Assembly: GCA_956465555.1 (NCBI GenBank)
Contig: OY101121.1
Coordinates: 1,326,722-1,390,721, forward strand
Reading direction: 5' to 3'
Length of the DNA: 64,000 nt
Source: Nitzschia sp. pyKryTriq1
Taxonomy: Eukaryota; Bacillariophyta; Bacillariophyceae; Bacillariales; Bacillariaceae
How positions within the stretch are numbered: the stretch's first letter is position 1; each line of letters begins with the position of its first letter. Both the position numbers and the translations under genes were made by a program. Below, piece by piece: positions 166 through 5,900 of the stretch. The notes beneath the pieces are model-generated. The model did not search any database. It saw only the letters and a program-made list of their open reading frames with translations, and was not told the origin of the DNA.

Positions 166-349
166 TTATTCAGTCTAGCTTCAAACTTTTATCTCTACAA
201 AAAGCCACACTACCGCAAACCAGAACTTTGGTGAAGTTGCTTCTCTGTCGAAATTTGGAGGTGGTCGAGCAGCCTTTTGCATCGATGTGAAGGTTGATGA
301 CAGCGGATTCAAATAATCCCAGACGACAGAGTTCACCCTGAACATCAAA

Positions 350-1189
350 TCATGACTGGGACCCGGCGCTCCCTTGATAAGGGGACCCATCTAATGTCTT
401 GACCGCCTTTGAAAATCGTTCGTCCCAGTTAATCTCAGGAAATTCGCCCACACTTCTACGTGTCGATACGTCCACAGCTATCTTTTGGTTCTTGATCACG
501 ATCGGTTGATGAGCCATCCCAGTATTCTGGATGACAATTTGTAGCTCCACAACTGGTCGGGATTGATACACACCAAATCCTGAAGCAATAGCTGAAGGTT
601 CTCGTTTGACACTCCTCAGTGTTTCACCGTTGCTTCGTTCCACCATGAAAACCCACCCACTGATTCTTCCCGGTATTTTTGCATCCCCAAGAAGCACCAG
701 CCCATCGTGCGGCATATGTGGCATCACGTTGGCTGCATTCATGGCACGATACAGCACTTTCTTGGAAACATTCGTATCTTCTGTTTCGCCATCTTCAAGT
801 TTCTCCGTCCACTGACGCACATTAAAAAATCCAAATCTCTGGACAGCCAATTGCAACCAAATAGAATCATCGTCGAACACATTCATGTCACGCCACTGTC
901 TTGAAACGGAAGGGCATCTGGAGAGGGAGACCGGATCAAGCATTTTCGCGACCGATCCGAAAACGGTATGTTCATCGGCAGGTACTTCTACGTGCTTGGT
1001 CGCCGATCCATTCTCGCCCGTTGATGTTTCGGGCTCGGATTTCATTCGCTTGACTGGAGACCCATTCACATCTTCTGTAGGATGTTCCTGCCGTTTGTGA
1101 TCCGGATGTGACGCTAGTAGTTGGCTCTGGGCAGGTAGGGGGAAGCGGAACACTCCCTGGTACACCACTTGTAGTTCCAGTGGTCGCAT
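350..1189 (-). CDS. F-box-like protein of unknown target
   Basis: This 279-aa frame has an acidic low-complexity N-terminus. Around residues 70-115 it has an F-box-like helix set (KMLDPVSLSRCPSVSRQWRD, then IWLQL), the form that would bind SKP1 in an SCF ubiquitin ligase. The rest, with blocks such as GWVFMVERSNGET and PVVELQIVIQNTG, is a compact fold I do not recognise. The ATG at 1189 is the first in frame, but an upstream coding frame with no clear splice site overlaps it. The protein stops at 350, while the next frame stays open to 181 and reads like globular protein (RVNSVVWDYLNPL). The true C-terminus may therefore be longer through a splice or a sequence error. The domain is moderately supported; substrate is unknown. 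Confidence 0.55.
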   Translation of the reverse strand: MRPLELQVVYQGVFRFPLPAQSQLLASHPDHKRQEHPTEDVNGSPVKRMKSEPETSTGENGSATKHVEVPADEHTVFGSVAKMLDPVSLSRCPSVSRQWRDMNVFDDDSIWLQLAVQRFGFFNVRQWTEKLEDGETEDTNVSKKVLYRAMNAANVMPHMPHDGLVLLGDAKIPGRISGWVFMVERSNGETLRSVKREPSAIASGFGVYQSRPVVELQIVIQNTGMAHQPIVIKNQKIAVDVSTRRSVGEFPEINWDERFSKAVKTLDGSPYQGSAGSQS

Positions 1190-1384: not shown

Positions 1385-1517
1385 AACTCCGCGGACTTTG
1401 AGGAACTCCGCGGACTTTGAGGAACTCCGCGGACTTTGAGGAACTCCGCGGACTTTGAGGAACTCCGCGGACTTTGAAGAACTCCGCGGACTTTGAAGAA
1501 CTCCGCGGACTTTAAGG
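1385..1517. repeat. 19-bp minisatellite, seven copies
   Basis: Seven head-to-tail units of AACTCCGCGGACTTTGAGG. The first four are identical; the last three differ by one base in the final AGG part. Diverged units continue to about 1560. Each unit contains the palindrome CCGCGG. Copies abut with no spacers, so this is not a CRISPR array. Confidence 0.95.
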
Positions 1518-2095
1518 ACAACCGGGAACTCTGCGGACTTTTTTGAACTCCGCGGACACTTTCTGGATTATTACGCGGATGTTTTTCTCATCCTGCGCGC
1601 CGTCATGCGGAAAATTTCCGCGCGGAATAGATATTACGCGCAGAGTTTTGAACCCTGCGGAAATTCTGCGAAGAAGCGCGTCATTCCGCGCGAGCGCTGC
1701 GAATCGCCATCCCTCACTTCTTGAGAACAGCCTGGAGCGGCTTCGCCACGCTGTCCGTTAACGCCCGCCACAAGCCAAACGATGCCTGATTGAAGAGCGA
1801 TACATATCGTACAAGTACTCGTACCAGTACAAGTACCTTGTCTAACGGGTACCGCGGTATATGCATAGGTCTCCTCTAATAGATTATTTTTCGTACGAAG
1901 CGATCCCTTGTCCAAAATCCAATCGATCATCAATCGTTGTGTCGCTGATAGTTTGCGACATTCAAAGCGAAATTGGTTTCGTAGTACTGTCACCGAATTA
2001 CTATCACAGAGCAGTCTTTCCTTCGACGAAGAAGACCCTCGCTTTGTTTCCACCCTGTGCAGAAGTCTTCAGAGACCAAAATCGACATCGCCGCC

Positions 2096-4370
2096 ATGAT
2101 GGTGGTTCTTCCATCGGCAACTCCAATGGTTCGAAGCTTATCGCTGGTGTTGCTTCCCTTGTTGTCGGCAGCAGTAGCTTTCCGCGGTGGAACGGCCGTT
2201 TCCGTTCCCTCCTTCACGTTGGAGGAGCTGAATCGCGGTACGCGGTCCCAGGATTTACTTGAATCTTTGCGTACCACAGGGCTCGTGGCGGTCCAGGTGG
2301 CGGACCAAGTAACCGCCGAGGGCGGTGAAAACGGACATTCATTTCATCGTACTGTGGCGATGGATGGGCTCTGCCACTGCTTGGAGCGTGTGGCCGCGGT
2401 CGCGACCAGGAATGGTGTGGAGGGTGTGGATACCGTGGTATTGGACGACCAGGCAACCCGTCGGACTACGATTGCTACGGGAACTGTGGGGGATTCTTCG
2501 CCCCTTCCACTGGCAAGTCGAGACATTTTGGAAGAGAATTGTGGTCAAGGGACCGTTGCCGCTATGGAAGTGGTGCGTGATCAAGTGGCCCTGGCGTCGG
2601 ATACCTTTGTTCAATCCTTGGATCGCCTCCACATGCTTTACCACAACGATGTGACTCCTCTACTCAAGGACAATCTAGGCGGAACCTATTCGACCTTGAA
2701 ATCGGTTGTGCAGTCCGCAAATCATTTGGAACACTTTCATCACTACAGCAAAGAAATTGGAACACAAACCACCAACGAAGACGACGATTCTCCTTCATTG
2801 GACTGGCACACCGATGCTGGATTGTTTCTAGCGTTTATCCCGGCTTGGGATTGTCACTCCTCGGGAGAGCAATTGGATGCTTCTTTCTGGGTTAAGCTCC
2901 CTGGTGGGCAACAAGTGCAAGCGAAGTTTGACCCCGGGACTGTTGTGATTATGATGGGTGTTGGTGTGGAGCACTGGATTTACAATGCCTTTGGTCTCCG
3001 AGCTACGCGCCATGCCGTGCGGATGAACAACGGAGATGCTCGCACTTGGTATGGGATGAGTAAGTGCATATTATACGTACACGTAGCTGAGAAATGGCCA
3101 CACCTTGTAACGGTACCGATACGAGTAGCGGCGTCGTTTGCATGATCACAACTCACTGATTTTCTTGCTTGCTCGATTGCACTACTTTCTCTTCCTTGTA
3201 CAAATAGTGCATCTAGTCCCCGACAACGCTGTTATTCAAGAACTTCCCACTCGGCAAACATTCGGCGAGATGAAAACAAACATGCGACTACTTGCGGAAC
3301 GTCAGCAAGTCTACGGTGACATTAACGTGGTGGACACGCGAGGGGTAGCCATTGGTTGTGGCCCGGCTTTGGATGACGACTTGATACTCGCGGTGACCAT
3401 CGGACTTTCTGCCGAACCCGCGATCTCGGAGACTCCGATGCGCCGCCGGCTCCAGCATGTTCAAGATGCAAGTGCCTGCAACAACGCCACTAATTTCTTT
3501 TGTTGGATGCAGTGCTTGGAAATCCCAAACTATAGACAAGCAGAGAGCTACGTGGATGAAGGATATTCTCTGTACTGCCTAGATCCAGGCATTCTAGCGC
3601 GCACGGGAAATCAAGTCTCGAAAGCTATGTCTCCCTGCCAAGGTCAAGTACACAATTCCAACTGCATGGGAATCTGGCATCCAACGGCACCAGGTATACC
3701 AGGACAAGATGTGCTCTACAATGAAACGGCAACCGGAGCAGACGACGTATACTGCTACGGTGGGACGTCCATGTACATGGATGGATTCCATTGGATCCAC
3801 GACACGACCTGCGTGATTTATCTATTCCCTCAGTGGGTCCTCTCAACACAAGGAAAATTTGCAGCGGCTTGCTTTGGGACGCTGATATTTGGTATTGTGG
3901 TAGAGTACGTCATTTCGAGGCGACGCGATTCCGTGACGGGTCTGTCGGCTGGATACTATCGTCTTGCCGCTTCGGCCGGCTTCTATGGACTTCAATTGAC
4001 CATGGGGTATGTGATCATGTTGGTAGTAATGACCTACTCGATCCCACTCTTTTTGTGTTGTGTGATGGGACTGGTGGGTGGCCATGTCCTCTTCAATGCC
4101 AAGGACGCGCTGCTTTCGAAACTACCAAGTACGAGTGGTGGCAAATCATCGAATAATGTGTCGAGATCGGATAGTACGCAAAGCGCTGGAGCCAACAATG
4201 CAAGTGATGAAGAGCGTGCAGGACAAACCCCCGAAGATATCATCACTTCACTGCCCGAGTGCTGCTGCACCAACTCCGAACCTTTTCAGCAGAACGGAGC
4301 CACGGAAGTCGAGGAGGATCATGAAATACCGGAGGGGTGCACTCCATGTTGCCAGAATGTACTATCATAG
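2096..4370 (+). CDS. 2OG-Fe(II) oxygenase-like domain fused to CTR copper transporter
   Basis: Two exons (2096-3059 and 3208-4370, donor GTAAGT, acceptor AAATAG) give about 708 aa. The ATG at 2096 has a GCCGCC context and opens a signal peptide (SLSLVLLPLLSAAVAF). Residues about 200-320 resemble isopenicillin-N-synthase-type oxygenases: HTD supplies an iron-binding His and Asp, GVEHW the distal His, and a following Arg could bind 2-oxoglutarate. A Cys-rich segment follows, then a CTR unit: an external Met motif (SMYMDGFHW), a first membrane helix ending YVISRRR, a second with MLVVM (the family's MxxxM copper selector) and a third with GLVGG (GxxxG packing). The tail ends in clusters ECCCTN and CTPCC, like CTR metal hand-off sites. 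CTR trimers import Cu(I). The frame runs cleanly across the intron. Why a secretory-side oxygenase is attached is unknown. Confidence 0.75.
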
Positions 4371-4838: not shown

Positions 4839-5900
4839 ATGCCGCGACGGAGGGCGACGAATCAAAGAAGTGGGTCGAGGCCCGCCAAGCGACAGGCGGT
4901 GCTGGGATGTTTTGCGATAGTTGTCCTGGCCTACTTTGCCCTGGTCACACACATGATTTCTTCGAATCCGTCGCTTCCTTCGAATGGTAGCGTGGTGCTT
5001 TCATCAGCACCGTTATCATCGACAATGGTGTCCCCGAAGCCGCCTCTTGATGAATTGGTGCAAGGGTGGAACATCACTGGCAACGTCAGTTGGTTGATGG
5101 ACTTTTCGATCGTTGGATTTCCCAAGACGGGAACTTCCACACTAATGTTCTATTTGGAGCAATACACGGACTCGATCTTTATATTTCCCGATGAACGCTG
5201 CGAGCTAGGTTGGAACCAGCACGTCAAGCTCATTCGAGCCATGTACCGCGAGTATCAGCCCCATCGACGGATGGGCATCAAATGCCCTCGCGATTTGGAA
5301 ATCGATCTTTCGATGTCGAATTACAATCGATTCTTCCCAACGACCAAGTTCATCGTCGGCTTACGACATCCAGTTCTCTGGTTTCAATCATTTTACAACT
5401 TTCGCGTTACCAATGAATTCCCCATGCCTCCAGGCGAAAAATTGATTGGAAGGTGCGTTCGGGCGAATCAAGGCGTGTGTACTGCACGAGCAAACTTCTC
5501 GAACCACTTGCAAAAGATTGAACCGTGGCGGAAAGTATTTGTCTATCACGTCGATCAGTTACTAGAGCGACCAGACAACAACGATAATGGTCCACTATTC
5601 CGTCGTGATTTGGGGGACTTTCTTGAAGTGTCACGTCCTCTCACGATGCCCATGATATGGGTCAAGCCCGGACAACGAAGTGTGACCGTGGAGAAACAAA
5701 AAGAGATTGATGCCTTGAAAATGGACATATGTGAAGACCGATATTCTCGTGTAAGGCAAGTTTTGTTGAAACAAGCCGCCCAATCAGCCGAATGGATCCG
5801 TAATGTCTTTCTGAAGCAACGGAATGTCGTGGTTTCGAATCCAGATCAATTCAGTAAACTTTTGGCCGCCTGGCATTCCGACCCGTGCGATGGACGCTGA
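4839..5900 (+). CDS. Golgi-type sulfotransferase
   Basis: A single-exon 353-aa type II membrane protein. A basic N-terminus is followed by one membrane anchor (AVLGCFAIVVLAYFALV, residues about 20-36) and a luminal domain. FPKTGTST (about 94-101) is the 5'-phosphosulfate loop that holds PAPS. RHPVLWFQSFYNFR is the matching 3'-phosphate motif. This family moves sulfate from PAPS to sugar hydroxyls or other acceptors in the Golgi. The ATG at 4839 follows AAA and lies just before the basic stretch; an earlier short frame stops. The acceptor cannot be told; a sulfated cell-wall or mucilage polysaccharide is a reasonable guess. Confidence 0.85.
   Translation: MPRRRATNQRSGSRPAKRQAVLGCFAIVVLAYFALVTHMISSNPSLPSNGSVVLSSAPLSSTMVSPKPPLDELVQGWNITGNVSWLMDFSIVGFPKTGTSTLMFYLEQYTDSIFIFPDERCELGWNQHVKLIRAMYREYQPHRRMGIKCPRDLEIDLSMSNYNRFFPTTKFIVGLRHPVLWFQSFYNFRVTNEFPMPPGEKLIGRCVRANQGVCTARANFSNHLQKIEPWRKVFVYHVDQLLERPDNNDNGPLFRRDLGDFLEVSRPLTMPMIWVKPGQRSVTVEKQKEIDALKMDICEDRYSRVRQVLLKQAAQSAEWIRNVFLKQRNVVVSNPDQFSKLLAAWHSDPCDGR

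Follow-up and report, generated by a model that had tools for sequence, protein, structure and literature searches.

In Chlamydomonas the copper transporters CTR1 and CTR2, which are characterised by a Cys-Met motif, have enlarged Cys-containing ectodomains, and the soluble CTR3 is a duplicated ectodomain without the transporter. To our knowledge, none of the three carries an oxygenase-like domain. CTRs take up Cu(I), and in a reviewed model of copper acquisition by diatoms ligand-bound Cu(II) is first reduced at the cell surface by reductases which are separate from the CTRs (PMC9502191). Another arrangement is described for the fungus Cryptococcus. There, Bim1/Cbi1, a GPI-anchored, LPMO-like, copper-binding protein, interacts with Ctr1; it both binds copper and releases it, and the redox activity known from LPMO-type enzymes is said to be missing (PMC9258870, PMC7924993). 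Here we describe a gene from the diatom Nitzschia sp. which is predicted to unite a signal peptide, an oxygenase-like domain, a Cys-rich module and a CTR transporter in a single polypeptide (the fusion), and a second gene nearby which contains the outer part (the twin). The gene features are as follows:

C7:1326722-1390721: source stretch of 64,000 bases in a 40.65-Mb genome of 20 contigs; this whole stretch is the window, and all positions without a contig name refer to it
2096..3059, plus strand: exon 1, residues 1-321 and base 1 of codon 322; encodes the signal peptide and the larger part of the oxygenase-like domain
3060..3207, plus strand: GT-AG intron of 148 bases, splits codon 322 after base 1; the open frame of the twin matches on both sides of it
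3208..4370, plus strand: exon 2, with the end of the oxygenase-like domain, the Cys-rich module, the CTR, the Cys-rich tail and the stop codon
C7:1323512-1324921, minus strand: twin, a single-exon gene of 470 amino acids, 1.8 kb before the window start, found by a genome search with the 708 residues of the fusion

Joining of 2096-3059 and 3208-4370 on the plus strand yields a protein of 708 amino acids. The gene boundaries were exact: ATG at 2096, GT at 3060, AG at 3206-3207 and the stop codon at 4368-4370; reading through the donor site leads to a stop at 3143-3145. The splice was examined by comparison with the twin. Both proteins are 30% identical in a pairwise MAFFT alignment. A tblastn search of the genome returned the twin as a single match to residues 119-347 (E 8.4e-17). 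With the low-complexity filter off, the match covered residues 121-447 (E 6.3e-22), i.e. it spanned the splice junction and reached into the Cys-rich module; residues 1-120 of the fusion align to the twin in the pairwise MAFFT alignment only. Aligned with the twin were R316, W318, Y319 and G320 before codon 322, and M322, L324, P326, A329, P335 and TFGE (339-342) at or after the junction. Because the twin is continuous coding DNA across the junction, homology and not consensus alone speaks for this intron.

Codon usage was scored with a model whose training set comprised 6330 codons; these came from 15 of the 17 2OG frames in the same genome. In frame, exon 1 scored 0.148 (other frames, -0.29 and -0.20) and exon 2 scored 0.054 (other frames, -0.32 and -0.28). 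Exon 2 thus was less coding-like than exon 1, and some 30-codon stretches inside it dropped to about zero. The intron was not coding-like (-0.23 for 3060-3142; -0.10 for its end when read in the exon 2 frame). One may ask whether the locus consists of two genes, an oxygenase gene with its stop at 3143-3145 and, from ATG 3270 onwards, an independent CTR gene. Both open reading frames do exist. However, the twin is a single open frame over this junction with homology on either side. Further, the 60 bases from the acceptor to the alternative ATG (3210-3269) were coding-like with a score of 0.21 whereas 3060-3142 was not, and the Cys-rich module, which in the twin is attached to the oxygenase-like domain, sits in the CTR exon. 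On the whole, the codon scores count against two separate genes, and we consider such an arrangement highly improbable. The fusion gene is thus predicted to encode a single protein, with a splice backed by the twin. This bears out the sequence-only reading of this DNA, which had joined the frame across one GT-AG intron and had given the domain order as signal peptide, oxygenase-like domain and CTR. Retention of the intron (3060-3207) would result in a secreted-type product of 349 residues which ends at 3143-3145 and is devoid of the Cys-rich module and the transporter.

The C-terminal half contains the following features:

3771..4103, plus strand: CTR copper transporter core, residues about 510-620, by PF04145 and 6m97; the motif MYMDGFHW precedes the first membrane helix
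4017..4082, plus strand: MxxxM-x12-GxxxG signature, residues 592-613
4260..4352, plus strand: Cys-rich C-terminal tail with C673-675, C699 and C702-703

Judged by its sequence, this half is a CTR copper transporter for which transport of Cu(I) is predicted. The 708-residue protein matched PF04145 (Ctr) with E 8.6e-11 and 43 bits at a cut-off of 25.3, and up to E 1 this was the only Pfam family matched. The structure 6m97, a CTR1 chimera from salmon, was matched with E 0.0019 for the whole sequence by one weak stretch per membrane region. Hydropathy of the CTR half displayed a stretch at 538-559 and a long one at 578-620, which is wide enough for two helices. Like the CTR/COPT proteins of PF04145, the fusion thus combines the Pfam match with a Met motif before the first helix, the MxxxM-x12-GxxxG signature as given in PMC9502191 and a Cys-rich tail, and the CTR identity noticed from the letters was confirmed. 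Unlike those proteins it adds a signal peptide and a presumably folded ectodomain of about 480 residues. The genome contains two other credible CTRs, on contigs C1 (197 amino acids) and C11 (215 amino acids). Both are short frames with upstream exons outside the models, and the ectodomain of the fusion had no match in either frame. A fourth match to PF04145 at C8:1834874 (29.5 bits, over the cut-off) we regard as spurious; it contains three stops and falls within a Met/Leu/Val-rich stretch.

The identity of the N-terminal half was less obvious. It was analysed together with two further proteins of the genome:

2195..3293, plus strand: oxygenase-like domain, residues about 34-350, spans the intron; from the twin alignment and hhalign
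C13:505300-506352: L031, clavaminate synthase-like, with a signal-peptide-like start by eye
C3:397980-398936: L036, clavaminate synthase-like, a relative of L031

The domain had been named an isopenicillin-N-synthase-like 2OG-Fe(II) domain. Exon 1 was without a match in Pfam, NCBIfam or PDB sequences, in Pfam up to E 1, and therefore this name is not directly readable from it. Similarly, the twin matched no Pfam family up to E 1, and fusion and twin were both absent from the 18 places in the genome which matched PF03171 (E up to 1). Among the PDB sequences, a profile of the two copies matched only an unrelated protein, with two hits of E 0.32 and 0.97; the twin by itself found one with E 1.4 via its His-rich stretch. 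Structure prediction of exon 1 alone by AF2 without an alignment ended at a pLDDT of 34.5.

A relationship emerged from profile-profile comparisons. The 18 PF03171 places correspond to 17 distinct frames; of these, L026 was dropped and the other 16, in which the distal His could be recognised, were aligned. The oxygenase-like domain was represented by an alignment of fusion and twin, the only two sequences which define it. In hhalign it scored 44.7 against the 16 genome proteins (P 1.7e-6). As controls, 200 column shuffles reached 28.3 at most and the reversed alignment 11.5. With L031 removed from the PF03171 set the score was 35.4, and each copy alone gave 30.6 and 30.9, respectively. L031 and L036 each match PF03171 and DIOX_N weakly and represent a recognisable subfamily; their joint profile led to 9hdl, a solved clavaminate synthase-like protein, with E 3.4e-58. 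Against L031 and L036 the two copies scored 43.1 (maximum of 200 shuffles, 26.1), and against L031, L036 and 9hdl 52.5 (P 1.1e-6; maximum of 200 shuffles, 24.3). The profile match extended from before the HxD motif to the distal His, with HxD placed on HxD and distal His on distal His. The Arg, and TFGE with the TFGE/TFGD of L031 and L036, were aligned in the multiple alignment only.

Comparisons with single sequences were much weaker. BLAST to individual 2OG proteins was non-significant, with E 0.018 for twin and L031 and a best E of 0.22 for the fusion; BLAST to 9hdl was equally non-significant (twin E 0.028, fusion E 1.7). With hmmsearch, a model of the 16 sequences found the fusion at E 3e-4 and the twin at E 0.27; the latter was outranked by one of 2000 shuffled sequences, which had E 0.019. 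Therefore, the claim of a relationship rests on the profile-profile scores. These lend good but not overwhelming support to a 2OG-oxygenase-like ancestry in the clavaminate synthase-like branch. Of the original domain assignment the ancestry was thus upheld, whereas a direct match in Pfam or PDB was absent. We also searched collections of prokaryotes and viruses. The two-copy domain alignment gave 40 and 55 pattern matches, respectively, none of which was confirmed. The same applied to the virus collection queried with exon 2 (two pattern matches) or exon 1 (three) and to the prokaryote collection queried with L031 (nine).

Next, the residues of the presumed active site were compared:

2732..2740, plus strand: H213-F-H215, in the strand before HxD; kept in the twin
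2807..2815, plus strand: H238-T-D240, the metal-binding HxD; kept in the twin and aligned with the relatives
3011..3013, plus strand: H306, the distal metal His, matched in the alignment by its counterpart in 2OG proteins; kept in the twin
3041..3049, plus strand: R316-T-W318 at the RxS site of the family, by twin comparison and multiple alignment

H238, D240, H306 and R316 are present in fusion and twin, in agreement with the HTD, distal His and Arg reported for this frame before. The RxS site reads RTW in the fusion and RVW in the twin, i.e. Ser is replaced by Trp in both. RxS is found in 14 of the 16 scored PF03171 relatives of the genome; L027 and L028 are without it and L026 was unscorable. 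Fusion and twin differ by one residue around HFH and, because of this, no direction of its side chains is claimed. Like the clavaminate synthase-like and IPNS-like proteins (PF03171, 9hdl), the domain has the HxD and the distal His by profile and the Arg by multiple alignment; unlike these, the fusion has RxW for RxS, an extra HxH, a Cys-rich module and a transporter. This pattern fits a metal site that is kept and a co-substrate pocket that is changed.

Is the ectodomain an active Fe(II) oxygenase? It might then modify a copper-holding ligand, a wall protein or the transporter, either in the lumen of the secretory pathway or at the cell surface, and through the fusion its product or the released copper would be placed beside the pore. 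That HxD, distal His and Arg are all kept in both copies at an overall identity of 30% speaks for this. The clan relatives IPNS and ACC oxidase function without 2-oxoglutarate, and so the loss of RxS need not abolish activity. Yet RxW replaces RxS in both copies, and Fe(II) and 2-oxoglutarate are expected to be scarce outside of a marine cell, which we counted against an active enzyme. Such an enzyme is the main rival to the copper hand-over discussed below, albeit in our estimate an unlikely one. The term oxygenase, used without qualification in the sequence-only reading, consequently holds for the ancestry of the domain; an activity is putative at most, with Trp in place of the RxS Ser in both copies. 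At the other extreme, the ectodomain could be a dead enzyme with a metal-free role in structure or protein interaction, e.g. in holding the CTR trimer or in binding to the wall. The loss of RxS in both copies would agree with this; however, the metal triad is also kept in both, which would be needless for a pure scaffold, and we regard a dead enzyme as very unlikely.

The segment between the oxygenase-like domain and the transporter was delineated by the twin comparison:

3357..3758, plus strand: Cys-rich module, residues about 372-505

Fusion and twin have six of its Cys in common (372, 412, 420, 424, 445 and 465), and the module is probably disulphide-bonded. Used alone as a query, the module found only itself in the genome. 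As even the twin went undetected, this search was insensitive. The twin has no CTR part. Its C-terminus consists of a His/Asp-rich stretch, SSGVGFHSGR and then 17 mostly hydrophobic residues, and by eye this tail reads like a GPI-anchor signal. A third copy of the ectodomain was not found in the genome; the only extra match, at C10:628226 with E 0.005, was to the tail of the twin. By sequence comparison, fusion and twin are a pair which presents the outer part with and without a transporter. The first description of this gene contained neither the Cys-rich module nor the twin.

Twin and fusion gene point away from each other and are separated by an inverted repeat:

C7:1325609-1326515 and 1326892-1327799: inner blocks of the inverted repeat, 99.8% over 908 aligned positions
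171..1078: right inner block, between twin and fusion gene
C7:1325159-1325439 and 1328157-1328437: outer blocks, 99.6% over 281 bases
1436..1716: right outer block, ends 380 bases before the start codon of the fusion
350-1189, minus strand: F-box-like gene, in both arms, the left copy without the start of the right one; Pfam E 0.0029, below the cut-off

Together, the blocks form a near-palindrome (C7:1325159-1328437) with arms of about 1.4-1.5 kb. Both genes start outside of the arms at roughly mirror positions, the twin at a distance of 238 and the fusion of 380 bases. The repeat as well as the gene pair would be explained by an old inverted duplication whose inner arms were later homogenised. 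For the F-box part, a recent copy or an assembly fold-back is conceivable. The fusion/twin pair itself is not an assembly artefact because the two sequences are far too different. Upstream of the fusion gene, the outer arm contains a tandem array of a 19-base unit with 7.1 copies (window positions 1385-1518); the left arm apparently has fewer copies of this unit. Downstream of the fusion, at 4839-5900, a gene for 353 amino acids has weak sulfotransferase matches below the Pfam cut-offs. Elsewhere in the genome, an open frame with long Ser/Thr/Pro-rich repeats of the SPTVSPT type was noted (L010:4218-5258, minus strand), perhaps a wall or surface protein. The silicon transporter family had eight matches in this genome, of which seven were near full length at E < 1e-260; among 14 control genomes one had a match, which was below the cut-off. 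By these genes alone, the genome would most likely be assigned to a diatom. Silicon transporter genes are also present in a few other silicifying algae.

Where in the cell would the ectodomain reside? Fusion and twin both begin with a signal-peptide-like stretch, which in the fusion is placed as follows:

2096..2182, plus strand: signal peptide, residues 1-29, hydropathy maximum at 11-29; presumed cleavage AAVA/FRGG, by eye

Sequons for N-glycosylation are present in the ectodomain of the fusion (N414, N493) and in the twin (N46, N85, N366, N414). These sequons and the shared Cys are as expected of proteins in the secretory pathway. By its sequence features the fusion would most likely reside in the plasma membrane and expose its ectodomain to the outside. 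Both precursors have a Phe at the presumed +1 position, AVA/FRGG in the fusion and DGA/FSPAR in the twin (cleavage by eye). In the plastid presequences of diatoms, a Phe is often found in this position and is of crucial importance there (PMC4329603). It could indicate a plastid or another internal membrane as the destination, with the signal peptide followed by a short, Phe-led transit peptide and the CTR moving copper across the plastid membrane. Against this, the aligned domain starts within about 6-10 residues of the Phe and little transit peptide is left. This is not decisive because the length of the transit peptide is less critical, a case of 12 residues being reported (PMC4329603). As judged by eye, the residues between this site and the domain carry no net positive charge in fusion or twin. 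Sequons, common Cys and the GPI-like tail of the twin point to the cell surface instead, and a plastid location appears quite unlikely. The initial placement of the oxygenase outside of the membrane is thus retained as the favoured one on the signal peptide, the CTR topology and the tail of the twin, which were assigned by eye or inferred; the Phe at +1 counts against it.

Tentatively, we favour as a possible function a copper-binding and copper-handing ectodomain at the cell surface, built on an altered oxygenase fold and fused to the Cu(I) channel of a CTR. The oxygenase-like domain and the Cys-rich module together would face the secreted side of the plasma membrane. The barrel would keep its 2-His-1-Asp metal site, while the co-substrate pocket would be altered by the change of RxS to RxW and by the extra HxH. 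The ectodomain would bind copper, raise the local copper concentration at the mouth of the CTR pore and hand the bound copper over to the Met motif located there. The twin, which ends in the GPI-like tail, would take part in this system as a copper-binding surface protein of its own. We infer surface location, copper binding and hand-over from the features described above. In our view copper binding and hand-over fit better than the metal reduction, ligand release or copper sensing which had been suggested at the outset. A more far-reaching version is doubtful in its entirety: a 2OG-oxygenase fold turned into a copper receptor, in which the iron site and the HxH take copper from seawater ligands and pass it in reduced form to the Met motif of the CTR, with the GPI-anchored twin alongside. 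This would amount to a second, unrelated invention of the solution realised in fungal Bim1.

If the copper hand-over reading holds, the system would resemble fungal Bim1/Cbi1 (X325) and Ctr1 in that a surface oxygenase-type fold serves CTR uptake and a GPI-anchored form exists. The differences are considerable. The fungal copper site is a His brace in a different fold, whereas here a 2-His-1-Asp site is present, and Bim1/Cbi1 and Ctr1 are separate proteins in the fungus but one polypeptide in the fusion. The N-terminal His of a copper His brace of the Bim1/X325 type is absent, the presumed mature N-terminus being F30 (by eye). The resemblance is functional; we see no sign of homology. No CTR-oxygenase fusion was known to the sequence-only reading, and none was among the matches listed in our targeted text searches of open-access papers. 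Such fusions may be common among diatoms and yet have gone unremarked.

Research on copper nutrition in the ocean continues to ask how diatoms capture copper from strong organic ligands and reduce Cu(II) before the CTRs take it up. A concrete molecule for such tests is provided by a CTR which carries its own metal-site ectodomain and is accompanied by a channel-less twin. If the proposal is true, metal capture would have become the task of an oxygenase fold here, independently of Bim1 in fungi.
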